Under the pieces are notes generated by a model, which was given only the letters and a program-made list of their open reading frames with translations, was not told the origin of the DNA and made no database searches. This document shows, one piece after another, positions 20,275 to 32,421 of a stretch of 39,924 nucleotides of DNA. Source of the stretch: Nonomuraea lactucae (GTDB lineage: Bacteria; Actinomycetota; Actinomycetes; Streptosporangiales; Streptosporangiaceae); contig NZ_QNFZ01001067.1 of NCBI RefSeq assembly GCF_003313395.1, positions 1-39,924 on the forward strand, written 5' to 3'. A program made the translations under genes and the position numbers. The stretch's first letter is position 1; each line of letters opens with the position of its first letter.

Positions 20275-21467
20275 CTGCCACGCCTGCTTCTCCCTCCCTC
20301 GAATCACTCGACCTGGACCCGGCTTTCGCCCTGCACCGCGGTGGCAAGCTGGAGGTCCGCTCCACCATCCCCGTCCGCGACGCCGACGACCTGTCTCTGG
20401 CCTACACCCCGGGCGTCGCCAGGGTGTGCACCGCCATCGCCGACACGCCGTCACTGGTCAACGACTACACCTGGGTCTCCAACGTGGTCGCCGTCGTCTC
20501 CGACGGCACCGCGGTGCTCGGCCTCGGCGACATCGGCCCCGCCGCGGCCATGCCCGTGATGGAGGGCAAGGCGCTGCTGTTCAAGGAGTTCGGCGGCGTC
20601 GACGCGGTCCCCCTCTGCCTGGCCTGCACCGACGTCGACGCGCTGGTCGAGACCGTGGTCCGGCTCGCGCCCTCGTTCGGCGGCATCAACCTTGAGGACA
20701 TCAGCGCCCCGCGCTGCTTCGAGGTCGAGGCCCGGCTGCGCGACCTGCTGGACATCCCGGTCTTCCACGACGACCAGCACGGCACCGCCATCGTCGCCCT
20801 GGCCGCCCTGACCAACGCCGCCCGTCTGACCGGCCGGTCCCTGGGCGACCTGCGCGCCGTCGTGGCCGGCGCGGGCGCCTCCGGCGTCGCGGTCACCCGC
20901 ATCCTGCTGGAGGCCGGCATCGGCGACATCGCGGTGGCCGACTCCAAGGGCATGATCTACCCCGGCAGGGAGGGCCTCAACTCCGTCAAGGAGGCCCTGG
21001 CACGCGACACCAACAAGGCCGGCCACCTGGGCTCCACCGAGGAGGCCCTGGCGGGCGCCGACGTGTTCCTCGGCCTGTCGGGCTCGACCGTCTCCGAGGC
21101 CGCCATCGCCTCCATGGCACCAGACTCGATCGTGTTCGCGCTGTCCAACCCGACGCCCGAGGTGGCGCCGGAGGTGGCCGCCAGGCACGCCAGGGTGGTG
21201 GCGACCGGCCGGTCCGACTTCCCCAACCAGATCAACAACGTGCTGGCCTTCCCCGGCGTCTTCCGCGGCGCGCTCGACGTCCGAGCCACCACCATCACCG
21301 AGAACATGAAGGTCGCCGCGGCCACCGCCCTCGCCGCCGTGGTGGGCGACGACCTCGCCGCCGACTACGTCATCCCCAGCCCGTTCGACGCGCGGGTCGC
21401 CCCCGCGGTCACCGCCGCCGTGGCCGCCCAGGCCAGGCAGGACGGGGTCGCCCGGATCCAGGGCTGA
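20271..21467 (+). CDS. Malic enzyme
   Basis: 398 residues from GTG 20271. It decarboxylates malate to pyruvate with NAD or NADP. Family blocks in order: [11 protein letters not shown] (catalytic Tyr), [20 protein letters not shown] (catalytic Lys), [15 protein letters not shown] (metal Glu/Asp), [12 protein letters not shown] (metal Asp), [13 protein letters not shown] (dinucleotide fold), and [10 protein letters not shown]. It is of the short bacterial type without the C-terminal phosphotransacetylase-like domain of longer enzymes. Cofactor preference is not decidable from the motifs alone. It is divergent from the amino-acid ABC operon, as also recalled for the Streptomyces coelicolor malate oxidoreductase region. 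Confidence 0.93.
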
Positions 21468-21474
21468 ACCACCA

Positions 21475-21496
21475 CGCCTCCCCCCGGGAGGAGGCG
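21475..21496 (+). terminator. Hairpin after malic enzyme
   Basis: CGCCTCC (21475-21481) pairs with GGAGGCG (21490-21496), with further CCC/GGG pairing inside. It follows the malic-enzyme stop by 7 nt and has no T-run. Confidence 0.5.
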
Positions 21497-21540
21497 GGCC
21501 GGCATCCAGGCATCCGAGTTCGCGTGAGCATCGGGAAGTT

Positions 21541-21571
21541 TTGAACGTCCCTTTACTCAGCGTGCTATAAC
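21541..21571 (+). promoter_or_regulatory. Possible promoter of the TPR regulator
   Basis: TTGAAC (21541-21546) and TATAAC (21566-21571) are separated by 19 nt and lie about 50 nt before ATG 21619. The hexamers are good, the spacing is slightly long. Confidence 0.4.
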
Positions 21572-21618
21572 AGGAGCCCTCTGTAAGGATGCCGGCTCCC
21601 TCCGGGGCGAGGAGAACG

Positions 21619-22977
21619 ATGCGACGCGAGCCCAACCGACTGCTGCAGCAGCTCATCGCGGAGGCGGGCTTCTCCCACAAGGGGCTGGCCAGGCGTCTCA
21701 ACGATCTGGGTGCCGCACGTGGCACGCCCGGGCTGAAGTACGACCACAGTTCGGTCCTGCGATGGCTCGCCGGCCAGCGCCCGCGAGACCCGGTGCCGTC
21801 GCTCCTTACCGAGATCTTCGCATTACGGCTCGGCAGGCCCGTCACGGCCGAAGACCTGGGAATGCCGGCCATCATCTCACCCCCCGATCTCGGGCAGGAG
21901 TTCACGCACACGTGGCAGGAGGGGGTCGCGACCGTGACGTCGCTGTGGCGGGCCGACGTGGAGAGACGAAGGTTCCTGATCGACTCCACGTTCGCGATAG
22001 GAGCGGGCTCCGTCGGAGCCGTGCGCTGGCTGACATCCCCACCCGAGAGCCGCCTCGAAGGCGGCGGCTCGCGGCGGGTGGGCAGGGCCGACATCGCGGC
22101 CATCCACGAGGTCACCCGCTCGTTCGGTGAGCTCGACAACCGCTTCGGCAGCGGGCGCGTGCGCGCGTCCGTGGTCAAATACCTCGACACCGCCGTCGCG
22201 CCGCTCCTCAAGGAAGGCTCGTACGGCGAGGCCACCGGCAGGGAGCTCGCGGCGGCCGCGGCCGAGCTGACCAGGTTGGCCGGCTGGATGGCCTACGACA
22301 TGGAGCAGCACGGCCTGGCCCAGCGCTACCTCATCCAGGCGCTGCGTCTGGCCAGGGGAGCGGGCGACGACGCGCTGGGCGGCGAGATCCTGGCGGGCAT
22401 GGCCCACCAGGCCGTCTACATGAACCGCCCGGCCCACGCCCTCGACCTGGCCAGGGCCGCGCAGCTCTCGGCCCGGCGCTCGGGCGTCCAGACCCTGGTG
22501 GCGTCCTGCCACGTGCTGGAGGCGCACGCCCACGCCGGTCTCGGCGACTCCCGCGCCTGTGCCGCCGGCCTGCACGAGGCCGAGCTGGCCTTCGACCGCC
22601 GCTCCCCGGGACGGGAGCCCGCCTGGCTGGGCTACTTCGACGAGGCCTACCTGTCGGCCAAGTTCGCCCACTGCTTCCGCGACCTCGGCGACGGGGTCCA
22701 GGCGGTGCGGCAGGCGCGCCGCTCGCTCGACATGGACGGCCGCTACGTGCGCGGCCGGATGTTCAACCTGTCGCTCCTGGCGGCCGGGCTGATGCAGTGC
22801 GGCGAGCTGGAGGAGGCCTGCCGGGTCGCCGGCGGGGCGTTCGACCTCGCGGGCGAGCTCCAGTCGGTCAGGTCGCGCTCCTACGCCACCGACTTACGCA
22901 GGCGGCTGGAGCCCTACAAGCGCGAGCCCGCGGTGACGGCGCTGCGCGAGCGCACCAGAGAGCTGGCCGCCGTATGA
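21619..22977 (+). CDS. NsdA-like regulator with HTH-like N-terminus and TPR repeats
   Basis: 452 residues from ATG 21619, preceded by GAGGAG at about 5 nt. The N-terminal 70 residues (LLQQLIAEAGFSHKGLARRL, SSVLRWLAGQRPRD) resemble a helix-turn-helix in which a cognate tail follows. A twin-Arg hydrophobic stretch (RRRFLIDSTFAIGAGSVGAV, about residues 113-132) follows, then a series of helix pairs of tetratricopeptide type (AQRYLIQALRLARGAGDD, HALDLARAAQLSARRSG). This matches the NsdA type of Streptomyces, reported as a negative regulator of antibiotic production and sporulation. The resemblance is general, not residue by residue, so function is inferred. Confidence 0.7.
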   Translation: MRREPNRLLQQLIAEAGFSHKGLARRLNDLGAARGTPGLKYDHSSVLRWLAGQRPRDPVPSLLTEIFALRLGRPVTAEDLGMPAIISPPDLGQEFTHTWQEGVATVTSLWRADVERRRFLIDSTFAIGAGSVGAVRWLTSPPESRLEGGGSRRVGRADIAAIHEVTRSFGELDNRFGSGRVRASVVKYLDTAVAPLLKEGSYGEATGRELAAAAAELTRLAGWMAYDMEQHGLAQRYLIQALRLARGAGDDALGGEILAGMAHQAVYMNRPAHALDLARAAQLSARRSGVQTLVASCHVLEAHAHAGLGDSRACAAGLHEAELAFDRRSPGREPAWLGYFDEAYLSAKFAHCFRDLGDGVQAVRQARRSLDMDGRYVRGRMFNLSLLAAGLMQCGELEEACRVAGGAFDLAGELQSVRSRSYATDLRRRLEPYKREPAVTALRERTRELAAV

Positions 22978-23044
22978 GACGCGGCCTGTCCTGGGGATGA
23001 CTTCGTGAGGCGTGTAAGGCGTGTAAGGCGGGGAAAAGGCCGAA

Positions 23045-23067
23045 GGGCCCGGCTGGCAGCCGAGCCC
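23045..23067 (-). terminator. Terminator of P1
   Basis: GGGCCCGGCT and AGCCGAGCCC pair with one mismatch (23045-23054 with 23058-23067, loop GGC), beginning about 55 nt past the P1 stop. On the minus strand it is followed by a TTTT tract. Similar GAAGGGCC-type hairpins follow P2 and P3. Confidence 0.6.
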
Positions 23068-23121
23068 TACGGGTAAAGCTGGTGAACGCTGACCCAGGGT
23101 CCTCGTTCGATCCGCAGCGAA

Positions 23122-24630
23122 CTACGGGATGAGCTTGCCGGACCACGAGGCAGCAGCGGCCTTGTAGATCGCGGCGGTCTCACCGTCGAAGATCGGCGAG
23201 GTGATGTGGTCGTAACGGTTGTTGCCGTCCGTGTCCACGATCAGGCTGGTGACACCCTGGACGTAGCCAAGACGCTTGGCGTTGCTGTACTTGGCCAGCC
23301 ACGGGCCACCGTCGTAACCAGCGGTCACCGCGCAGCGGAACGACTGGTGCTCCTCGACCTTGCGGGCCGGGACCTTGAGGACGTGCTTCTCGGTCTTGCC
23401 GTAGCACCACTTCGGCGTGACACCCGTGTAGGGCTTGTTGCCGTCGGGGTGCGGGCCGAACGGGTACCCGAAGGTACGCACGTAGGTGCCGGTGGGCTGG
23501 TTCCACGCCACACCCTGGCCACCAACGTTGTCGCCGAGGCGACCGTTGCTCTTGACCGCGTGCACGACGGTGTAGAACTCAGTCCGGAAGTACTCGACCT
23601 TGACGGACTTCTTCACCCAGTACTTCAGGAAGTAGTGGGTGATGGTGAAGTTGCCCTTGGAGTCGATCTTCCGGTAGCCCGGGCCGGTGTACGCCTTGTA
23701 CTCGGACTCCGTGACGTACTCGGTGTAGGTCGCCCGGTAGGCCTTGGCGCCGTTCACCTGACCGCTGGGAGCGGCGTTGTACGCCTCGACCGGCACTTCC
23801 TTGAGAACCTTCACCGAGTCCGGGTGGTCCGGGCCAGCCAGGTCCTCGATCTTGGTGGCCTTCGCCCAGCAGTCGGGCGTCTCGCCGCCGTTGAGGTCCT
23901 TGCACTTCTTGTACTCGGCCTCAGTGATCGCGAAGTCCTTGGTGAACTTCTCGCCCTGGTAGGCGTCGTACTCAGCCTTGGTGACCTTCTTCGGCTGGTT
24001 GAGCACGCCGCCGATGCCGTCGTACACGGTGACGAACGCGTAGTCGCGGTCGAAGTCCTCGTACACGTCGAAGTCGTAGTGGGTGAAGGCCTGCTTACCC
24101 ACGTAGACGCCCCAAGGAGCCTTGCCCTGGTAGTAGCCGGGGACGAAGACCCACTTCGACACGACCTCACCGTTGGCGGCGATGTCGTAGACGCAGTGGC
24201 CGGCGGTGGCGACCAGGTTGCGGTACTGCGACTGCACCGAGGTGCCGGAGCACCAGTACAGCTTGCCGTCACGCGTCTCGAAGAACACCTTGCCGATGGT
24301 CTTCGGCAGGTTCACGTTCTGCGTCTTGACGGTCTTCTTCTTCTCCTCGCCGATCGGAACGGCGGAGCCCGGCTTCGTGTCCGCGCTATAGCCGCCGCCG
24401 CGCTTGATCTTCTCAACCTCGAGGGAGTCGGGGTTGAAAGCCACAGCCTGCTTCAGGGCAGCGTTGTCGGACTTGGTCCAGAAGTTCAGGACCTCGGCAG
24501 CCTGCGCAGCCGTCTTGGCGAGGGGGTCGGTGGCGATGTCGCCCTGGGCCTGAGCCGAACCGGCGAGGCCGGCGGCCAGGAGACCAGTGGCGAGAACCGC
24601 GCCACCGGCGGGGAGGAGGATGCGCTTCAA
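23122..24630 (-). CDS. P1: secreted trypsin-like protein with Asp in place of the catalytic Ser
   Basis: 502 residues from TTG 24630, which has AAGGAG five bases upstream and a Sec signal directly after (MKRILLPAGGAVLATGLLAA, cleavage near Ala28). An in-frame ATG at 24672 would add 14 basic residues. The chymotrypsin-fold protein has His145 (LVATAGHCVYD) and Asp196 (DFDRDYAFVTV), but the serine position of GxSGGP reads GYDGGPW, so Asp440 replaces Ser. The oxyanion Gly-Gly-Pro is kept. Residues about 215-365 hold an insertion with repeated (V/I)T(K/E)xEY units and two Cys. The protein is rich in Lys and acidic residues. It is therefore probably a non-hydrolytic pseudoprotease that may still bind substrates. 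Single gene with its own promoter and terminator. Confidence 0.85.
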   Translation of the reverse strand: MKRILLPAGGAVLATGLLAAGLAGSAQAQGDIATDPLAKTAAQAAEVLNFWTKSDNAALKQAVAFNPDSLEVEKIKRGGGYSADTKPGSAVPIGEEKKKTVKTQNVNLPKTIGKVFFETRDGKLYWCSGTSVQSQYRNLVATAGHCVYDIAANGEVVSKWVFVPGYYQGKAPWGVYVGKQAFTHYDFDVYEDFDRDYAFVTVYDGIGGVLNQPKKVTKAEYDAYQGEKFTKDFAITEAEYKKCKDLNGGETPDCWAKATKIEDLAGPDHPDSVKVLKEVPVEAYNAAPSGQVNGAKAYRATYTEYVTESEYKAYTGPGYRKIDSKGNFTITHYFLKYWVKKSVKVEYFRTEFYTVVHAVKSNGRLGDNVGGQGVAWNQPTGTYVRTFGYPFGPHPDGNKPYTGVTPKWCYGKTEKHVLKVPARKVEEHQSFRCAVTAGYDGGPWLAKYSNAKRLGYVQGVTSLIVDTDGNNRYDHITSPIFDGETAAIYKAAAASWSGKLIP

Positions 24631-24660
24631 GGTGACTCCTTGCGCTGTCGTGGAACGCCT

Positions 24661-24701
24661 CTTGCGTCCCATGCGTCAGTAAAGGGATAGCCAGGAACAT
24701 A
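24661..24701 (-). promoter_or_regulatory. Conserved promoter/leader of P1
   Basis: Of the 41 nt, 39 match the stretch upstream of P2. TATGTT (complement of 24696-24701) is a plausible -10 box of the TAnnnT type. The remainder is then the start of a leader of about 58 nt ending at the TTG codon. Confidence 0.65.
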
Positions 24702-24759
24702 CAGTGTGGATCTTGAGGACTGGTAGCCGCTTTGAGAAGAAATGATCGGCCCTGCCGCC

Positions 24760-24776
24760 CGTGATCGTTCTGTGAT
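24760..24776 (-). promoter_or_regulatory. 17-nt element upstream of P1 promoter
   Basis: CGTGATCGTTCTGTGAT, 58 nt upstream of the conserved promoter. The P3 copy has 16 of 17 identical bases at nearly the same distance, and the P2 copy 12 of 17. Likely a shared operator. Confidence 0.55.
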
Positions 24777-24905
24777 GTTTAAGCGGCCTATGTGGGTGAC
24801 TCGCCGGAAGTGTCAGACCCGCCCGTTTCCGCAGATCAACATAAGGAAGTTGTCAGTGTGACTCAGGGGGCGGGCGGTCAGTCATCCGAGTGTCATCCGT
24901 GAAGG

Positions 24906-24921
24906 TGTGATGCAGATCACA
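24906..24921. promoter_or_regulatory. Perfect CRP-type palindrome upstream of P1
   Basis: TGTGATGCAGATCACA matches TGTGA-N6-TCACA in all ten positions and extends to 6-bp arms (TGTGAT/ATCACA). It lies 204 nt upstream of the P1 promoter box and 65 nt past the P2 terminator. The rest of the 447-bp gap (24631-25077) holds the P1 promoter elements, the P2 terminator, and no gene I can support. Confidence 0.6.
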
Positions 24922-24986
24922 TCGACTTGGTGGCACCGTCCGGGCGTGGCGTGCGTCCAAACGCCCCACAGATTCCTCGGAAACGC

Positions 24987-25015
24987 CGAAGGGCCCGGCG
25001 ATGCCAGGCCCTTCG
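24987..25015 (-). terminator. Terminator of P2
   Basis: CGAAGGGCC (24987-24995) pairs perfectly with GGCCCTTCG (25007-25015), 11-nt loop, about 60 nt past the P2 stop; a short TTT follows on the minus strand. Confidence 0.75.
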
Positions 25016-25077
25016 CGAGTGAACGCCTTGAGCGATCGGCCTCAGGCCAGTCGCGCTGCGTTACTTAGGTGCGTTGC

Positions 25078-26586
25078 TTAGAGGATCCTGCCGGACCACA
25101 CGTTCGCGGCGGCCTTGTAGACCGAGGCGGTCTCACCGTCGAAGTACGGCGAGGAGATGTAGTCGACACGGCCGTTGCCGTCCTGGTCGTTGAAGGTGCT
25201 GACGACACCGTTGACGTAGCCGAGACGCTTGGAGTTGCTGTACTTGAGCAGCCACGGGCCACCGTCGGCGCCTTCGGTCATGGCGCACTTGAGGGCGATG
25301 TGCTCCTCGATCTTCTTGGCGGCCGAACCGACCAGCTTCTTCGTGGTCTTGCCGTAGCACCACTTCGGCGTGATGCCGGTGTAGTTCTTGTTGCCGTCGG
25401 GGTGCGGGGCGGCCGGGTAGCCGAACACGCGGACGTACTTGCCGGTGGGCTGGTTCCAGGCGACACCCTGCCCGCCGACGTTGTCACCGAGGCGGCCGGC
25501 GTCCTTGACGAAGCCCTCGATGATGTAGAAGACGGTCTTGTAGTAGCCCTTGACGTCCGTCTTCTTCACCCAGTGCTTGATGAAGTAGTGGGTGATGGTG
25601 TAGTTGCCCCGCGCGTCGATCTTGCGGTAACCCGGGCCCTTATAGGCCTCGTACTCGGACTTGGTGACGTGCTCCGTCTTGGTCTGGGACGGCGCCTTGG
25701 TGCCGTTGCCCGCACCCGTGGGAGCCGCGTCGTAGTCCTCCTTCGTGACCTCGGTGAAGGCCTTCACCGCACCCGGGTAGTCCGGGCCGACGGTCTCGAA
25801 CTTGGTGTCGGTCTTGGCCCAGCAGTCCGCGGTCTCGCCACCGTGGAGGTCGACGCACTTCTTGTACTCGGCCTCGGTGATCGTCACGTCCTTGGCGTCC
25901 TTGACGCCCTGGTACTTGTCCCAGTCGGCCTTCGAGACCTGCTTCGGCGTGCCGCCGCCGATGTGGATGCCGTTGTACACCGTGACGAACGCGTAGTCGC
26001 GGTCGTAGTCCTCGTAGACGTCGAAGTCGTAGTGGGTGAAGGCCTGCTTACCCACGTAGATGCCCCAGGGCGTCTTGCCCTGGTAGTAGCCGGGCACGAA
26101 GACCCACTTGGACATGACGTCCGTGTTGTTGGCCGTGTCGTACACGCAGTGGCCGGCGGTGGCCACCAGGTTGCGGTACTTGGCCTGGACGGAGGTGGCG
26201 GAGCACCACTTCTTCTCGCCCTTGCTGTTGACGAAGAAGACCTTGCCGATGGTCTTCGGCAGGTTGACGTTCTGGACCTTGACCTTGGTCTTCTTCTCCT
26301 GGCCGATCGGCGCGGCGGAGCCGGGCTTGGTGTCGGGGCTGTAGCCGCCCTTGCTCTGGAGCTTGGCGACGTCCTTGTTGTCCCAGATGTTGGACTGGGT
26401 CGCGGCCTTGAGAGCCGCACCGTTGGACTCGGCCCAGTACTGGGCGATGGCCTTGGCGTCGGCCGCGCTCTTCGCCATCGGGTCGCTGGCGACGTCGGGA
26501 GCGGCCGTGGCGGTGCCGGCCAGGCCGGCCGCCAGAAGGCCGGTAGCCAGAACGGCGCCACCGGCGGGGATGAGGATGCGCTTCAA
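25078..26586 (-). CDS. P2: secreted trypsin-like protein with Asp in place of the catalytic Ser
   Basis: 502 residues from TTG 26586, with AAGGAG eight bases upstream, and the same signal as P1 (MKRILIPAGGAVLATGLLAA). It is the closest paralogue of P1 and the same length. His146 (VATAGHCVYD) and Asp197 (YDRDYAFVTV) are kept, while the serine motif is GADGGPW with Asp441. It contains the same inserted segment as P1 with matching blocks (VSKADWDKYQG, ITEAEYKKC, TKEDYDAAP, VTKSEYEAYKGPGY). Conservation of the Asp and of the insert together argues against recent decay. Function is probably binding or decoy rather than hydrolysis. A short leader frame ends in its start codon. Confidence 0.85.
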   Translation of the reverse strand: MKRILIPAGGAVLATGLLAAGLAGTATAAPDVASDPMAKSAADAKAIAQYWAESNGAALKAATQSNIWDNKDVAKLQSKGGYSPDTKPGSAAPIGQEKKTKVKVQNVNLPKTIGKVFFVNSKGEKKWCSATSVQAKYRNLVATAGHCVYDTANNTDVMSKWVFVPGYYQGKTPWGIYVGKQAFTHYDFDVYEDYDRDYAFVTVYNGIHIGGGTPKQVSKADWDKYQGVKDAKDVTITEAEYKKCVDLHGGETADCWAKTDTKFETVGPDYPGAVKAFTEVTKEDYDAAPTGAGNGTKAPSQTKTEHVTKSEYEAYKGPGYRKIDARGNYTITHYFIKHWVKKTDVKGYYKTVFYIIEGFVKDAGRLGDNVGGQGVAWNQPTGKYVRVFGYPAAPHPDGNKNYTGITPKWCYGKTTKKLVGSAAKKIEEHIALKCAMTEGADGGPWLLKYSNSKRLGYVNGVVSTFNDQDGNGRVDYISSPYFDGETASVYKAAANVWSGRIL

Positions 26587-26633
26587 GGGAACTGCTCCTT
26601 GGTCTGTCGTGGGTCGCGCAACTTGCGCCCCAT
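26583..26633 (-). CDS. Possible 16-residue leader peptide of P2
   Basis: ATG 26633 begins MGRKLRDPRQTKEQFP and stops at TGA 26583-26585, overlapping the P2 TTG as TTGA. The first residues MGRK also occur at the upstream in-frame ATG of P1 (24672). No ribosome site precedes it, so translation is uncertain. Confidence 0.3.
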   Translation of the reverse strand: MGRKLRDPRQTKEQFP

Positions 26634-26662
26634 GCGTCAGTAAAGGGATAGCAAGGAACATA
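26622..26662 (-). promoter_or_regulatory. Conserved promoter/leader of P2
   Basis: 39 of 41 nt match the stretch upstream of P1, and the inner 34 nt (26629-26662) differ by one base. The -10 candidate TATGTT is the complement of 26657-26662. Confidence 0.65.
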
Positions 26663-26721
26663 GCGCGGTGATCTTTGCAGGTGAAAGCTGGTTTGCCCCA
26701 CTCGGTAGAGGCGATTACCGC

Positions 26722-26738
26722 CGTGACCTTTCCGTTAC
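26722..26738 (-). promoter_or_regulatory. 17-nt element upstream of P2 promoter
   Basis: CGTGACCTTTCCGTTAC matches the P1 copy in 12 of 17 positions and starts 59 nt upstream of the conserved promoter, against 58 (P1) and 60 (P3). Confidence 0.45.
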
Positions 26739-26857
26739 CGGTCAGTGATCTTTGCCCAGAGTGAGCGTGAAGCTACGTCTTTGCAGGGCATGTAAGGGTT
26801 TCCGGGGCGCCCTGGAAAAGGGGGTGAGGAGGCCGTCGCGGAGCGTGAGCGCTCCAA

Positions 26858-26873
26858 TGTGACTCAGATCACA
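26858..26873. promoter_or_regulatory. Perfect CRP-type palindrome upstream of P2
   Basis: TGTGACTCAGATCACA matches all ten consensus positions, 195 nt upstream of the P2 promoter box and 70 nt past the P3 terminator. The 405-bp gap 26587-26991 is otherwise without a gene. Confidence 0.6.
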
Positions 26874-26943
26874 GGAACCAAAACGGGCTCCAACTCCGTC
26901 TAAGCTGCCTTCCGCGCTGTGATGATCTTCTCGAAGGCGCGAA

Positions 26944-26971
26944 AAGGGGCCCGGCGGGAGCCGGACCCCTT
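26944..26971 (-). terminator. Terminator of P3
   Basis: AAGGGGcCCGGC (26944-26955) pairs with GCCGGaCCCCTT (26960-26971) with one mismatch and a 4-nt loop, 20 nt past the P3 stop. TTTT follows on the minus strand. Confidence 0.8.
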
Positions 26972-26991
26972 CGTTGTGACGCTTCTCCGCC

Positions 26992-28158
26992 CTACTTGTA
27001 CAGCTCGCCGTTCGGGCCGACGATCTTGCCTGACCACACGTTCTTCGCCGCGTTGTAGACGGAGGCGGTCTCGCCGTCGAAGTACGGCGAGGTGATGTAG
27101 TCGACCCGGTCGTTGCCGTCCTGGTCGGCGAAGGTGCTGGTGACGCCGTTGACGTAGCCCAGGCGCCTGCCGTTGTCGTAGCCGCTCAGCCAGGGGCCGC
27201 CGTCGTGGCCGGGGGTCACCGCGCACTTCAGGCCGATGTGCTCCTCGATCTTGAGCCACGGCGCGCCCACGGCCTTGCCGGTGGTCCTGCCGTAGCACCA
27301 CTTCGGCGTCACGCCGCTGTACGGCCTGTTGCCGTCGGGGTGCGGGCCGGCCGGGTAGCCGAAGGCGCGGACGTACTTGCCGGTGGCCTGGTTCCAGGAG
27401 ACGCCCTGGCCGCCGACGTTGTCGCCGAGGCGGCCCACGTCCTTGGACAGCAGGAGGTAGTGGCGCCCGCCCCAGCTGCGCTTGGGGCCGGTGAAGCCCT
27501 CGAAGTCCTTGCGGCCCACCTGCTTCACGCCGGTGAAGGCGATGCCGTTGTACACGGTCACGAACGCGTAGTCGCGGTCGTAGTCCTCGTAGACGTCGAA
27601 GTCGTGGTGGGTGAAGGCCTGCTTGCCCACGTAGATGCCCCATGGCGCCTTGCCCTGGTAGTAGCCGGGCACGAAGACCCAGTTGTCCAGGACGGCCTTG
27701 TCGCTGTCGGTGTCGTACACGCAGTGGCCGGCGGTCGCGACCAGGTTGCGGTAGTTGGACTGGACCGAGGTGGCCGAGCACCAGCGGTGTCTGCCCGAGC
27801 CGTCCACGAAGAAGACCTTGCCGATCGTCTTCGGCAGGTTCACGTTCTGGACCCTGCCGATCGGCCTGCGCTCCTCGCCGATCGGGGCGGCGCTCCCCGG
27901 GCTGCCGTCGGCGCTGGGGGCGCCCTTCGAGACGAGCTTCCTGACCTCCTTGGCGTCCCAGGTGTAGGCGGTGGCGGCGCGGAGCGCGGCGCCGTTGGAC
28001 GCCAGCCAGAAGGAGGCGACGGAGGCGGCCCGCGCGGTGTTGCGGGCCATCGGGTCGCTGGCGATGTCGTTCCGGGCCGGCGCGGTGCCCGCCAGGCCGG
28101 CGGCCAGGAGGCCGGTCGCCAGTGCGGCGCCGCCGGCCGGGAGGAGGATTCGCTTCAA
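26992..28158 (-). CDS. P3: shorter secreted trypsin-like protein with Asp in place of the catalytic Ser
   Basis: 388 residues from TTG 28158 (GGAG upstream). Signal and N-terminal half match P1 and P2 closely (MKRILLPAGGAALATGLLAA, NVNLPKTIGKVFF). His145 (VATAGHCVYD) and Asp196 (YDRDYAFVTV) are present. The serine motif is GHDGGPWL with Asp319. The long insert of P1 and P2 is almost absent: only VGRKDFEGFTGPKRSWGG remains, resembling its last repeat. P3 may thus represent the ancestral length, with P1 and P2 expanded. GC is higher than in P1 and Lys is partly replaced by Arg. Otherwise the same single-gene layout with its own promoter elements. Confidence 0.85.
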   Translation of the reverse strand: MKRILLPAGGAALATGLLAAGLAGTAPARNDIASDPMARNTARAASVASFWLASNGAALRAATAYTWDAKEVRKLVSKGAPSADGSPGSAAPIGEERRPIGRVQNVNLPKTIGKVFFVDGSGRHRWCSATSVQSNYRNLVATAGHCVYDTDSDKAVLDNWVFVPGYYQGKAPWGIYVGKQAFTHHDFDVYEDYDRDYAFVTVYNGIAFTGVKQVGRKDFEGFTGPKRSWGGRHYLLLSKDVGRLGDNVGGQGVSWNQATGKYVRAFGYPAGPHPDGNRPYSGVTPKWCYGRTTGKAVGAPWLKIEEHIGLKCAVTPGHDGGPWLSGYDNGRRLGYVNGVTSTFADQDGNDRVDYITSPYFDGETASVYNAAKNVWSGKIVGPNGELYK

Positions 28159-28208
28159 GGTAACTCCAGGCTCTGCCTTGTGCTGACCGGGGCTCCGTAC
28201 ACCCTCGT

Positions 28209-28236
28209 GATCAGCAAACGGTCAGCCCGGAACCTA
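28209..28236 (-). promoter_or_regulatory. Related promoter/leader element of P3
   Basis: 20 of 28 nt match the P1 element. The -10 candidate is TAGGTT (complement of 28231-28236). Confidence 0.5.
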
Positions 28237-28296
28237 CAGCCCTGACTCGGGGCCGGTGAATCCGCCGGAGATCATGCCAATCACCCGTGAGCCGGG

Positions 28297-28313
28297 CGTG
28301 ATCGTTCTGAGAT
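28297..28313 (-). promoter_or_regulatory. 17-nt element upstream of P3 promoter
   Basis: CGTGATCGTTCTGAGAT differs from the P1 copy by one base and starts 60 nt upstream of the P3 promoter element. Confidence 0.55.
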
Positions 28314-28352
28314 CCGGTCTGCGCTGATCGCTGGAGGGCCGGCCACGCTGCG

Positions 28353-28368
28353 TGTAAGTTGCGTCACA
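28353..28368. promoter_or_regulatory. Near-consensus CRP-type site at the end of P4
   Basis: TGTAAGTTGCGTCACA has 9 of 10 consensus positions (one mismatch, A for G). It overlaps the P4 stop and lies 116 nt upstream of the P3 promoter element. The distance differs from P1 and P2, so it is weaker support. Confidence 0.35.
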
Positions 28369-29452
28369 TTTGCGGCGAGCTGAGCGCGGCGGCGCGGCGG
28401 TAGACCGCGCCCGTGGCAACGGTGAAGGGCGGTGAGGACACCGCGTCGTAGGCGTCCTTGGCGTCCCGGTTCCAGGTGAGGCTGTTGATGCCGTTCAGCC
28501 CGCCCAGCTGCTGCGCGGGCTGGTAGCCGAGCAGCCAGGCGCCTCCGCTCGCGCCGGCGCTGAAGTTGCACGGCTGGAGCTGCACGCCGTACTGGAGGTC
28601 GAGGCTGGGGGCGACGGTCCGCCTCGTGGTGCCCGTGCACATCTGGAGCTTGCGGCCGTCGAACGGGCGGCTGCCGTCGGGCTGGGCGCCGGCCGGGTAG
28701 CCGAAGGCGTGGATCGTGTTGTTGAGCCCCTTGGAGAGCGCCAGCCCCTGGCCGCCGACGTTGTCCTGAAGCATGCCGACGTCCTGCATGACGAGCCGGC
28801 CGTCCTTGGACGTCCAGGTGAAGCCGCGGTTGACGGTCACGAACGCGTAGTCGTAGTCGTAGTCGCCCTTGCCCGGCCAGTGCTCGTGCATGCTGATCGC
28901 GGCGCCGACGTAGATCCCGTCCGGTGTCGTCCCGTCCGGTCCAGGATTGGGAACGAAGATCCAGTATTGGGCGGCCTTGCCCTGCCGGGAGTCGTAGGCG
29001 CAGTGGGCGGCGGTGGCGACGACGCTGTGGTTCTTGGCCGCGACCGCGCTGGCGGAGCACCAGTATTCCTTGGCGCCGAAGCGGAAGAAGACCTTGCCCA
29101 TGGTCTTCGCGACCGCGCCCTTCTGCGGCAGGGCGGGCGCCACGTTGAGCGGGGCGGTGGAGGCCTTGGTCGTGGTGACGCCCTGGCCGGGCCCGAGCGC
29201 GGCCCCGGCGGCCGAGGTGGGCGATGACTGCGATCCCGGAGTGGCGGGGCTGTAGCTGTCGGCCTTCTTGAGCCGCTCGGGCTGCCAGTAGTCGGCCACC
29301 TTCTGCACGTCCGCCGCCGTCTTGGTCAGCCTGACGGAGTAGACCGAGCTGTCCGCGCTCTCCCCGGTGGCGGCGGCGTTCCCCGTGAAGGCAGGCAGCG
29401 TCAGCAGCGCGCTCAGCGCGGCTGCCGCCAGGTGCCTGGCTCGGGGGATCAT
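28364..29452 (-). CDS. P4: secreted trypsin-like serine protease, intact triad
   Basis: 362 residues from ATG 29452 (AAGG six bases upstream); a TTG at 29455 is an equivalent start. Signal peptide about residues 1-28 (MIPRARHLAAAALSALLTLP, cleavage near NAAA). The triad is complete: His150 (VVATAAHCAYD), Asp201 (YDYDYAFVTV) and Ser302 (SAGASGGAWLL). The fold is chymotrypsin/trypsin-like (S1 type). It lacks the inserted repeat segment. The prodomain region contains a Pro/Ser/Thr linker (about 65-110). It shares YWCSA, FGYPAG-QPDG and the C-terminal half with the other paralogues. The protein would be exported and active in the extracellular space. Family substrates are unknown. Confidence 0.87.
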   Translation of the reverse strand: MIPRARHLAAAALSALLTLPAFTGNAAATGESADSSVYSVRLTKTAADVQKVADYWQPERLKKADSYSPATPGSQSSPTSAAGAALGPGQGVTTTKASTAPLNVAPALPQKGAVAKTMGKVFFRFGAKEYWCSASAVAAKNHSVVATAAHCAYDSRQGKAAQYWIFVPNPGPDGTTPDGIYVGAAISMHEHWPGKGDYDYDYAFVTVNRGFTWTSKDGRLVMQDVGMLQDNVGGQGLALSKGLNNTIHAFGYPAGAQPDGSRPFDGRKLQMCTGTTRRTVAPSLDLQYGVQLQPCNFSAGASGGAWLLGYQPAQQLGGLNGINSLTWNRDAKDAYDAVSSPPFTVATGAVYRRAAALSSPQM

Positions 29453-29470
29453 CAAAAGCCTTTCCGGGGG

Positions 29471-29490
29471 TGTAAGTGTGGATTCTTACA
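29471..29490. promoter_or_regulatory. Palindrome TGTAAG-N8-CTTACA upstream of P4
   Basis: Two perfect 6-bp arms 8 nt apart lie just before the P4 ribosome site, in the divergent region to the inhibitor gene. The spacing is not that of a CRP site. It could be an operator or a leader hairpin. Confidence 0.4.
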
Positions 29491-29651
29491 GATCGGCGCA
29501 CTGTATTGCAGCTCGGGTGGAGGATTCGTTATCCGATCAAGCATGACGTGTGTCCCATAAGACAGCTATCAAGGTGTACGTCCAGATAGGCGTAACTCAT
29601 CCCTCGTGTCGGTCGTTGCCGCAGGTCAGAGGGTCAGGAATCGTAGTGACC

Positions 29652-30011
29652 ATGCGTCGACTTGTCTGCCTGGCCGTCCTTTCCTGTACGGCTTTCACCG
29701 CCGCTCCCGCCGAGGCCGCCACGCGTGTTCCCGGCAGGAACCTGAGGCTTTTCTTGATCACAGTGGGCCCGAAGACGGGCATGCTGTCCTGCGCCCCCCG
29801 GTCCACCAAGCCCGCGTGCGTCGCGCTCGCGAAGGCCGGCGGCGACCCCGCGCGGCTGGCGGGGCCGTCCGACATGGCCTGCACCATGGAGTACAACCCG
29901 GTGCACGTCAAGGCGATGGGCGTCTGGGACGGCAGGCGGCACGACTACGACCGGACGTTCTCCAACGGCTGTGAGATGGCCGCGTCGACCGGGCCGGTCT
30001 TCCAGTTCTGA
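29652..30011 (+). CDS. Subtilisin inhibitor-like (SSI-family) protease inhibitor
   Basis: 119 residues from ATG 29652; GTG 29646 with AGGA upstream is an alternative. A Sec signal peptide (MRRLVCLAVLSCTAFTAAPA) precedes about 96 mature residues. The four SSI cysteines are in place: LSCAP and KPACVALA (first disulfide), and MACTMEY and SNGCEMA (second). Aligning CTMEYNP with the SSI reactive loop CPMVYDP puts Met at P1 and Glu at P1'. The family signature GVWDGRRHDYDRTFSN and the C-terminal VFQF are present. SSI proteins form tight dimers that inhibit subtilisins and some trypsin-like proteases. Placed between two intact-triad proteases, it may restrain them or foreign proteases. Confidence 0.93.
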   Translation: MRRLVCLAVLSCTAFTAAPAEAATRVPGRNLRLFLITVGPKTGMLSCAPRSTKPACVALAKAGGDPARLAGPSDMACTMEYNPVHVKAMGVWDGRRHDYDRTFSNGCEMAASTGPVFQF

Positions 30012-30024
30012 GCGGGCACTCCGG

Positions 30025-30060
30025 AGGGCGGCCCGGTCCTCGACGGACTCGGGCCGCCCT
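30025..30060. terminator. Bidirectional terminator between inhibitor and P5
   Basis: AGGGCGGCCCG (30025-30035) and its perfect complement (30050-30060) form an 11-bp stem with a 14-nt loop between the two convergent stops. Confidence 0.75.
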
Positions 30061-30074
30061 GTGGCGTGCGCCGG

Positions 30075-31196
30075 TTACGGCATGTTGCCGGTCCAGCGGT
30101 TGGCCGCCGCCTTGTACACCTTGTAGGTGTCGCCGTTGAAGTACGGCGACGAGACGTGGTCGTAGCGGTCGTTGCCGTCGGTGTCCCACGCGACGCTGTT
30201 GACGCCGATCAGATAGCCGGTGCGCGAGGCGCTCCTGTAGTCGAACAGGAGCGGCCCGCCGCTGGCCCCGGCGGTGAAGCCGCACTTGAAGCCGACGTGC
30301 TCCTGCAGGTTGTACTTCGGCGCCGCGGGCATCGGCCTGGTCTTGCCGTAGCACCACTTCATCGTGCGCCCGGTGAAGGGCCGGTCGCCGTCGGGGTGCC
30401 CGCCGGCCGGGTAGCCGAAGGAGAAGACGTTCACCTTGGTGCCGCGGTTCCAGGTGAAGCCCTGCCCGCCGACGTTGTCGCCGAGGCGGCCCGCGTTCTT
30501 CCTGGTGAGCCGCCAGCCGTCGGCCGCCTTCTCCCAGTTGACCTTGATGCCGTTGTAGACGTTGACGAACGCGTAGTCGTAGTCGTAGTCCTCCTTCACC
30601 ACGAAGTCGTCGTGCGCGTTGAACGTCTTGGCGGCGTAGATGCCGTACGGGGCCTTGCCCTGCCAGACCTGGTCGCCGTCCCAGTAGGACGGGATGAAGA
30701 TCCAGTTGTCGTAGAAGCGGTTGGCCTTGATGTCGTAGACGCAGTGGGCCGAGGTGGCCACCAGGTTGCGGTACCTGCCCTGGACGGAGGTCGCCGAGCA
30801 GTACCTCCAGCTCTTCGGGTCACGCGGGTCGCTCCCCGGCAGCGTGAAGAACACGCGGCCCACGGAGTTGGGCAGGTTGACGTGCTTGCTCTTGACGGAC
30901 CTGGCCTTCTCGCCGCCGATCGGCGGCACGGATCCGGGCGGGCCGTCGGGGGTGGACCGGCCGCGCCTGGCGCCCTTCAGGCGGGCGTCCACCTGGTCGT
31001 CGTGGTCGGTGGCCAGCTTGATCCGGTCCGGCGTCCAGAACTGGACGGCCTGTCCGGCGGGGGTGGGGGCCGTGCGCGTGACGACGTCCGAGGGTGCCGT
31101 CGCACTCGCGGCGGTGCCGCTGATCGTGCCCGCGGCCAGCCCGACGGCGACCAGGCCGGCGAGGGGGATGGCGATGCGCCTTGCTCGGGGGTACAT
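30075..31196 (-). CDS. P5: secreted trypsin-like serine protease, intact triad
   Basis: 373 residues from ATG 31196 (AGGAG four bases upstream). Signal about residues 1-32 (MYPRARRIAIPLAGLVAVGL, cleavage near ASA). His151 (LVATSAHCVYD), Asp207 (EDYDYDYAFVNVY) and Ser312 (TAGASGGPLLF) complete the triad, and the oxyanion GGP is present. No inserted repeat segment; the Asp-Ser spacing matches P4. Conserved blocks shared with P1-P3 are NVGGQG, FGYPAG-HPDG, WCYGKT and the C-terminal DGNDRYDHVSSPYF. Of the five paralogues it resembles P1-P3 most while keeping the active Ser, so it is a good model for their ancestor. Confidence 0.88.
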   Translation of the reverse strand: MYPRARRIAIPLAGLVAVGLAAGTISGTAASATAPSDVVTRTAPTPAGQAVQFWTPDRIKLATDHDDQVDARLKGARRGRSTPDGPPGSVPPIGGEKARSVKSKHVNLPNSVGRVFFTLPGSDPRDPKSWRYCSATSVQGRYRNLVATSAHCVYDIKANRFYDNWIFIPSYWDGDQVWQGKAPYGIYAAKTFNAHDDFVVKEDYDYDYAFVNVYNGIKVNWEKAADGWRLTRKNAGRLGDNVGGQGFTWNRGTKVNVFSFGYPAGGHPDGDRPFTGRTMKWCYGKTRPMPAAPKYNLQEHVGFKCGFTAGASGGPLLFDYRSASRTGYLIGVNSVAWDTDGNDRYDHVSSPYFNGDTYKVYKAAANRWTGNMP

Positions 31197-31539
31197 GGAG
31201 CTCCTCTCAGTTCTCGGCGGCCCAGAGCGGGGTACGACGCCCCGGATGGGCCAGGAAAACGATTGGAACGTTAATGAATGGCGCGACGCCGTACCCGGGA
31301 AACGGCTGGGGAATATCTAATGCGCATGTATTACCAGAAAGCATTTCCGCAGGTCGGAGACGCTCTGAATTTGCTCTGGCCTCACTGGTAACAGTCGTTA
31401 TCACAAGCCTCTCTCCGAGTATGGTTGTGAATCTGTGACCCGTGAGAAGGATTTCGCCCGGCCAGAAGGCTTGCGCCGGCGGTCGCCGCTCGACTGAACT
31501 GGTTGCGAGGGCACAGCCGCACTACTGGGCGAGGTCGTC
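31197..31539. other. 343-bp divergent intergenic region upstream of P5
   Basis: No gene is supported. The region is AT-richer than its surroundings (31255-31440). The P5 leader holds GGGG-TACGACG-CCCC at about 31231-31245. A TAACGT that could be a -10 box for P5 lies near 31270 on the minus strand. No CRP consensus was found. Confidence 0.4.
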
Positions 31540-32421
31540 GTGGCCGATCAGTTCGATGTCATCGAGGCGGGGCAGCGCGGCCACCGCCGGTGGATCGGGC
31601 TCGTGGTGGTGGCGGCGCTGATCGCGATCCCCGTCGTGGGGCTGCTGGCCAGCCGCGACCCCGGGTCGCCGCTCGGTCACGCCGGGGCGACGCCCGACCC
31701 CATTCAGTCGCTGAGCACGCTCAGCAGCGCGCCCAACGTCCTCTACCCCAGGGCCACGACCCGCGGGGACGACGAGGTCATCCAGGTGGTCTTCCCTCAC
31801 GGGGCGCGGGCCGAGATCCGCTATCCCGCCGTGCTGGAGCTCGACGAGCTCGGGGCGCGCCCGTTCCGTGGCGCCTGGATCGACGGCCAGTACCGCCGCC
31901 TGTCCGCGCCCTATGGCGGCGAGGTGGAGGTGTCGAAGGGGGGCCAGCCGATCAGGAGCCTCACCTCCAACGTCCGGCTCTGGCCGCGCCAGCCGGGCAG
32001 CGGCTCGTCCGGGCAGGTGCTGCTGTTCGCGTTCGGGCCGTGGCGGCTGGCGCTGTACGACCGGCAGGAGGGGCTGACGTTCGAGCAGCGGATGGCGGTC
32101 GCCGAGCACCTGCGCGGCAGGGTGACCAAGGACGGCTACCTCGTGCTGTCGGGTGGCGGCCCGGTCCGCCTGGCCAGGCCGGGGGAGGACGCGAACGGCG
32201 ATCCGGTCGGCCCGCAGCTCTGGTTCGGCGGCGTCGTGGGCGACATGGTGGCGTTCATCCCGGCGCCCGGCTGCGACAAGGCCACGCGCGTGCCGCCGAA
32301 CTTCGACCGGCCCGGCCGGCCCGTCGAGGCCACGTGCAGGGGCGGGGTGCAGATCGCCGCCAGCGGCTCGGCGGAGTTCGTTCAGCGGGCCGTCGAAAAG
32401 ATCAGGATCACGCTGAAGTAA
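31540..32421 (+). CDS. Membrane-anchored protein of unknown function
   Basis: 293 residues from GTG 31540 (GAGG six bases upstream). A cytoplasmic start of about 18 residues (MADQFDVIEAGQRGHRR) is followed by one transmembrane helix (about 18-37, WIGLVVVAALIAIPVVGLL) and a large exported domain. That domain has beta-rich segments (EVIQVVFPHGARAEIRYPAVLEL, VLLFAFGPWRLALYDR) and one Cys pair near the end (PGCDKAT, ATCRGGV). No catalytic motif or family is recognised. It ends 10 nt before the dehydrogenase gene, so the two probably share a transcript. P5 is divergent. Confidence 0.7.
   Translation: MADQFDVIEAGQRGHRRWIGLVVVAALIAIPVVGLLASRDPGSPLGHAGATPDPIQSLSTLSSAPNVLYPRATTRGDDEVIQVVFPHGARAEIRYPAVLELDELGARPFRGAWIDGQYRRLSAPYGGEVEVSKGGQPIRSLTSNVRLWPRQPGSGSSGQVLLFAFGPWRLALYDRQEGLTFEQRMAVAEHLRGRVTKDGYLVLSGGGPVRLARPGEDANGDPVGPQLWFGGVVGDMVAFIPAPGCDKATRVPPNFDRPGRPVEATCRGGVQIAASGSAEFVQRAVEKIRITLK

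Follow-up and report, generated by a model that had tools for sequence, protein, structure and literature searches.

Here we describe an array of protease-like genes on a contig of Nonomuraea lactucae (NZ_QNFZ01001067.1, positions 1 to 39,924; this whole stretch of 39,924 nucleotides is called the window below). Three tandem trypsin-like paralogues, P1, P2 and P3, carry an aspartate at the position of the nucleophilic serine. The replacement is old and has been maintained, and the large insert carried by P1 and P2 is exchanged within the family. On balance, we favour the view that P1-P3 are secreted pseudoproteases, which would act as binding scaffolds beside active-looking proteases and often together with an SSI-type inhibitor. 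Pseudoproteases as such are a known kind of protein; the maintained Asp is unusual and the exchangeable cassette is unexpected. Bacterial pseudoproteases have seldom been described as families, and here members of 16 genera have retained the change from Ser to Asp. In the literature searched, which excluded most subscription journals, we recognised no published description of this family or of its insert.

Replacement of the nucleophile in P1-P3

P1-P5 are five tandem paralogues on the minus strand, whose signal peptides were judged by eye, without a prediction program. P1 (23122-24672, 516 amino acids, H159/D210/D454), P2 (25078-26661, 527 amino acids, H171/D222/D466) and P3 (26992-28158, 388 amino acids, TTG start, H145/D196/D319) are predicted to be secreted; P1 and P2 each contain an insert of about 160 amino acids and P3 is without a large insert. 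The next two genes, P4 (28364-29455; GASGGAW, H151/D202/S303) and P5 (30075-31196; GASGGPL, H151/D207/S312), retain Ser, His and Asp. A preliminary description of this DNA had placed P4 two genes beyond P3, but it is the very next gene.

A DNA pattern search for GxDGGPW gave exactly three matches in the window, all of them in P1-P3 and on the minus strand (GYDGGPW of P1 at 23299-23319, GADGGPW of P2 at 25252-25272, GHDGGPW of P3 at 27190-27210), and none in 100 shuffles. In a five-way alignment the Asp of P1-P3 shares a column with the Ser of P4 and P5, and all five proteins agree in the His, the triad Asp, four Cys and the loop's Gly-Gly. The shuffles and the alignment rule out that the motif is a product of chance or of misalignment, and they confirm the preliminary description, which had reported both the Asp at the S1 nucleophile and the retention of the remaining residues. 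The His-Asp-Ser triad of an active S1 serine peptidase is thus incomplete in P1-P3, with His and Asp present and Ser replaced by Asp.

Homology to solved proteases over both barrels assigns P3 to the S1 trypsin-like (PA clan) fold: in a PDB sequence search it matched 3wy8 in two stretches that cover both barrels (E=4.6e-18) and 3cp7 (E=3.6e-16). The Ser/Asp and His columns align with both chains. The triad Asp, at the Asp of DYAF, is aligned from P5 to 3wy8 and 3cp7 and from P3 to 3cp7, with a two-residue shift at this residue in the weak alignment of P3 with 3wy8. The serine proteases 3wy8 and AL20 (3cp7) share with P1-P3 the CxMTxGxSGGPW-like loop and the His motif as well as the sequence homology, but they have kept the Ser, and their aligned chains are without the large insert. 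None of P1-P5 matched the Pfam trypsin models (Trypsin, Trypsin_2) at the curated cut-off, all matches being sub-threshold. Because the Ser-type proteins P4 and P5 fail this cut-off too, it is a weak argument on the activity of P1-P3.

Distribution and origin of the aspartate

P3 had matches at E≤0.001 in all 55 Nonomuraea genomes, of which 49 gave a near-full-length match, in no case with a stop. Among the remaining six, G007 has a partial match to P3, and five match best via other paralogues or in part. Beyond the genus, we scored at most six candidates per genome in samples of the family (298 genomes), the order (298) and the class (296). In the family sample 273 genomes matched at E≤0.001, many of them weakly. 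At E≤1e-20, the order sample yielded 123 of 298 genomes from 24 of 62 genera, all in the same family, and the class sample 12 of 296, one of them outside the family.

A total of 481 homologues was collected from 97 loci. Together with the five window proteins, 470 sequences had at least 340 amino acids, 456 of these were well filled and 448 were distinct. The Nonomuraea loci L010-L039 and L077-L085 were omitted to avoid doubles; L074 and L133 represent one genome, and the identical L133 rows were dropped.

In a FastTree phylogeny of the 448 distinct cores, Ser/His/Asp is complete in the P5 clade (46/46) and in the P4 clade (78/78). A further Ser clade, C28, whose members mostly bear an insert, has 24 Ser and 4 Thr. 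In the remaining expansion the nucleophile is mostly substituted. It includes an Asp clade of 160 distinct sequences with 149 Asp, 5 Asn, 3 Ser and one each of Gly, Ala and Thr, the Asp members of which span the 16 genera. The support for this clade is only 0.549, and that for an inner clade of 157 sequences is 0.906. When the nucleophile column was removed, an IQ-TREE phylogeny of 85 sequences still placed 33 of the 35 Asp rows in one clade of 42 rows (99/90); the other two lay within the Leu/Ile part, in which alignment of the loop is poor. This tree requires ten switches between Asp and other states. From both phylogenies, it seems that the Asp arose mainly once and was later lost in places. 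The earlier proposal that the change was fixed before the last duplications is supported, the change being in fact much older.

Among the tree rows of the window and the named Nonomuraea loci, Asp occupies the nucleophile position in 28/28 P2, 32/33 P3 (1 Gly) and 17/22 P1 (4 Asn, 1 Ala). P0, a fourth paralogue that is not in the window, has Asp in 17/18 rows of the named loci (1 Thr). Many relatives of this actinomycete likewise have rows of such genes in which several copies carry Asp, some of them with a variable segment that is exchanged rapidly. A substituted copy occurs in 84 loci, and 74 of these 84 also have a copy of Ser type (P4, P5 or C28). The 10 without a Ser-type label include short and secondary loci and one doubled locus, L133, which falls among them only through the dropping of its identical rows.

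The Ser codons are AGY in P4, P5 and 23 of the 24 C28 Ser rows and TCN in the Leu/Ile and g31 clades, while the Asp codons are GAC or GAT. The three Ser members within the Asp clade (L121:7843-9600, L128:5452-7005 and L131:8041-9594) use AGC twice and TCC once, and they may be regained nucleophiles. In L122 and L139, each with three Asp copies, the catalytic His is followed by Asn instead of Cys (AHN), which suggests that the first disulfide has been lost in these copies.

Maintenance of the substituted site

The Asp clade and the neighbouring Leu/Ile group offer a natural comparison between an inactivated site that is maintained and one that is eroded. In the Asp clade 156/160 sequences retain His and 159/160 the triad Asp, whereas both are kept in only 30/68 rows of the Leu/Ile group, and the Asp clade is the more diverged of the two (mean core identity 0.69 versus 0.81). 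By parsimony, His changed 4 times and the triad Asp once in the Asp clade, whose tree length is 19.6; in the clade that holds the Leu/Ile rows, with a length of 14.0, they changed 6 and 8 times. His has been lost in 3 of the 11 Asp-clade rows without Asp and in 1 of the 149 with Asp (Fisher p=0.0009, a test on single tips that ignores kinship). In the Leu/Ile-type arrays at L094, L101, L102, L104-L110 and L112-L118, from the genera g27, g33, g38, g39, g59, g61 and g65, many copies have Leu or Ile at the nucleophile and the His is often Ser.

Under the GY+F3X4 codon model, the ratio of nonsynonymous to synonymous substitution rates (omega) was 0.039 for P3, 0.035 for P5, 0.083 for P4 and 0.071 for P0 (insert included). 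Purifying selection acts on P3 as strongly as on P5. With the insert removed, P1 and P2 had values of 0.253 and 0.175 under MG+F1X4, a model under which there is no Ser-type value, and the simpler count of Nei and Gojobori gave 0.25 for P2 without insert, 0.33 for P3, 0.39 for P1, 0.25 for P5 and 0.51 for P4. The comparison of dN/dS proposed in the preliminary description thus shows selection on P3, the one of the three Asp paralogues that the GY+F3X4 values cover. Relaxed selection or stop codons, either of which would have spoken against a retained role, are not seen for P3: its omega rules out the former and its 49 matches are free of the latter. One mark of a pseudoprotease is that a conserved homologue has lost a residue essential for catalysis, and this is seen here, with Asp in 149 of 160 sequences and P3 under purifying selection.

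The idea that the Asp copies are merely decaying duplicates heading for loss could draw on the Asn, Ala, Gly and Thr at the nucleophile and the His losses in some rows, on the 5 of 22 P1 without Asp, and on some second-locus copies that have a stop inside the match. However, purifying selection on P3, the retention of Asp in 16 genera and the near-full-length, stop-free P3 of 49 of the 55 genomes make decay extremely unlikely, and for P3 and P2 it is already disfavoured.

Proteolysis is probably gone, since no Ser particular to the clade stands out as a replacement. In the alignment from P5 position 96 on, conservation revealed no obvious substitute Ser specific to the Asp clade, a substitute being defined as Ser, Thr or Cys in >80% of the Asp rows and <25% of the Ser rows. 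T136, T194, T333 and S369 (P5 numbering) pass this threshold and none of them is an obvious nucleophile. An Arg before the triad Asp was also considered as a compensation and rejected, since it is frequent in Ser and Leu/Ile rows too.

Two further explanations start from the retained pair of Asp and His. The Asp might be used chemically, with an Asp-His-Asp site that catalyses some new hydrolysis or transfer. In favour of this, Asp, His and triad Asp are retained and coupled, and the loop glycines are kept in most rows read; yet Asn, Gly and Ala are found in otherwise intact orthologues and we know of no enzyme with an Asp-His-Asp site in this fold, and we regard this explanation as quite improbable. 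Highly doubtful in our view is a metal-binding pseudoprotease in which Asp and His of the old site serve as ligands. The retained pair and the bacterial precedent MamO, in the available part of its description (PMC4794232), speak for it. Against it, no further conserved ligands were noticed, although no systematic search was made, and many Leu/Ile relatives persist despite having lost the pair.

An exchangeable insert

The insert follows the triad Asp and precedes the second barrel, at 23545-24024 in P1 and 25498-25977 in P2 (both on the minus strand, and both of class 0 by the typing given below). Inserts of at least 100 amino acids (109-234) were present in 152 sequences, 103 of them in the Asp clade and 25 in C28, the rest elsewhere. 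For 66 pairs with a core identity of at least 0.95, the insert identity had a median of 0.57 and a minimum of 0.25. The tandem copies L087:11079-12854 and L087:13849-15606 have barrels that are 98-100% identical and inserts that are 61% identical, an apparent recent replacement of the cassette.

Five inserts gave no Pfam match under E 0.1, and PDB searches gave no match under E 0.4 for class 0 or 0.68 for class 1, by which a known domain within the insert was rejected. Omega of the insert was about 1.3 by Nei-Gojobori, 0.59-0.73 by MG+F1X4 (cores 0.18-0.25) and 0.08-0.26 by other models. As the codon models disagree with the Nei-Gojobori value, positive selection on the insert is not demonstrated.

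By single linkage with a 50% cut, the 152 inserts fell into 21 classes, of which the two main ones, related to each other, have 75 and 49 members. Inserts of P1 and P2 from the same genome are more similar (0.589) than the average pair (0.406; 0/10000 permutations, 13 genomes, window excluded). The cores show a slight excess as well (0.724 versus 0.715, also 0/10000 permutations). In 6 of the 13 genomes the own P2 insert is the nearest P2 insert to P1, and in only 3 of the 13 does it beat the insert of the best P1 orthologue. The same holds between C28 and Asp-clade inserts within a locus (0.468 versus 0.372; 20 loci, 0/5000 permutations), whose classes agree in 14 of the 20 loci and are different or small in L086, L089, L091, L123, L132 and L136.

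Considering the two large classes only, 42/42 loci are uniform, compared with 32.2 expected from shuffling within genera; this count omits P0, the small classes, one Leu/Ile-clade row and the doubled locus L133. Among loci with at least two insert-bearing members, L069, L086, L089, L091, L123, L132, L136 and L138 disagree at the 50% cut through small classes, and the disagreement in L058, L071, L073 and L134 involves inserts truncated where the locus ends. In Nonomuraea, P1 and P2 are of one class in 20/20 genomes that could be typed to the two main classes, L069 with its two small classes being left out. On a Nonomuraea tree built from P3 and P4, the class switches about five times at scattered places; there are three independent class contrasts on well supported branches and five on all branches, with which a sign test cannot reach significance. 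In L041 the inserts of P1 and P2 are 83% identical and their synonymous divergence (dS) is 0.24, compared with 0.42 and 0.36 for the barrels, as would be expected from gene conversion.

In recognition or conflict one would expect just such a variable cassette, changing in step in neighbouring genes. The array might accordingly be a strain-specific recognition system, in which the insert-bearing members of a locus carry matching cassettes that switch together between species by gene conversion, and an Asp-His-Asp arrangement keeps the scaffold fixed in a substrate-bound-like state that does not cut. The Asp pseudoproteases, and the Ser-type protease C28 where present, might then fit one another or a variable partner that they share, which may be a rival, a predator, a phage or kin. 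We put this forward tentatively and consider it rather unlikely as a whole, because P0 and 6 of the 20 C28 loci mismatch by class.

Proposed role and known pseudoproteases

P1-P3 keep the trypsin-like fold, judged by homology, the His-Asp pair and the glycines of the oxyanion loop, while the ancestral change from Ser to Asp removed the nucleophile and, judging from the sequence, probably the activity. As the Asp and the catalytic His are co-retained, the two are likely to form a pair at the oxyanion hole, which would hold the mature shape of the active site without cutting. The proteins would then work by binding, with the conserved core as a surface; in P1- and P2-type copies, the exchangeable cassette may set what is bound. 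Their location suggests that they could be partners, capture proteins or decoys alongside P4, P5 and the SSI-type inhibitor.

Several observations weigh against this view. By conservation within the Asp clade, the nucleophile column comes only 106th among 258, and since Asn, Ser, Gly, Ala and Thr occur at the site, Asp is not strictly required; three members of the clade even carry Ser. The cassette cannot be the whole function, because P3 is without a large insert, and insert and Asp are not tied to each other, because the Ser clade C28 bears the same kind of insert. Finally, P0 differs in class from P1 and P2 in L041, L055 and L068.

Families of inactivated protease paralogues comparable to P1-P3 are those of the scabies mite and the insect serine protease homologues, which are of animal origin; we know of no exchangeable insert in them. 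In human protein Z the nucleophile Ser is replaced by Asp and the His is replaced too. It resembles P1-P3, in which an S1 fold likewise has Asp in the place of the nucleophile, and it is a non-catalytic cofactor in a system of proteases and inhibitors, but it is an animal plasma protein, and the His has not been retained. According to the available part of a publication, serine pseudoproteases serve as ligands, cofactors, scaffolds or decoys, and human protein Z has a cofactor role (PMC13194640).

Among bacteria, the trypsin-like pseudoprotease MamO has Thr at the nucleophile and binds metal at another surface site, as stated in the accessible portion of PMC4794232. Like P1-P3 it is a duplicated bacterial trypsin-like protein with a changed nucleophile, His and Asp present and a non-proteolytic role, which for P1-P3 is predicted. 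In contrast to them it is of the HtrA type, has Thr instead of Asp and a metal site at other residues, a di-histidine site on the surface, and that portion mentions no exchangeable insert such as that of P1 and P2. Of the 966 prokaryotic serine proteases, from five families, that were covered by a 2008 survey of 91 genomes, 42 were counted as putatively inactive homologues lacking catalytic residues (PMC2605481). These belong to the same general class as P1-P3, whose own family was not seen in the part of the survey available.

Neighbouring genes and the SSI-type inhibitor

The proteins flanking the array, encoded on the plus strand at 21589-22977 (462 amino acids) and 31540-32421 (293 amino acids), had no Pfam match at E 0.001, and an Rfam search of 21000-32000 gave no match. 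Between P4 and P5, on the strand opposite to the array, lies an SSI-type protease inhibitor gene (29550-30011, plus strand; PF00720, E=1.4e-16). An SSI-like gene is present in 48 of the 97 loci examined. In Nonomuraea, SSI genes occur in 54/55 genomes and, by reading of the matches, beside the array in 14/55. The link between array and inhibitor, which rests on location, is suggestive only.

It might nevertheless be that the Asp paralogues are an inhibitor sink, binding own or foreign SSI-type inhibitors via their protease-like face and thereby protecting P4 and P5. The conserved pseudo-active site and the frequency of SSI genes given above would fit. We consider this unlikely, as many Nonomuraea loci keep Asp copies without an SSI gene, the inhibitor gene lies beside the array in so few genomes, and SSI genes are so common in Nonomuraea that their co-occurrence says little. 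The position aligned to P5 336, where 3wy8 has a Gly that we take to be Gly216 of trypsin, is Phe in 87% of the Asp rows. This Phe, judged from the sequence alignment, would narrow the substrate pocket, which is in keeping with a pseudoprotease, and together with the charged Asp it would be expected to disturb the canonical binding of an inhibitor.

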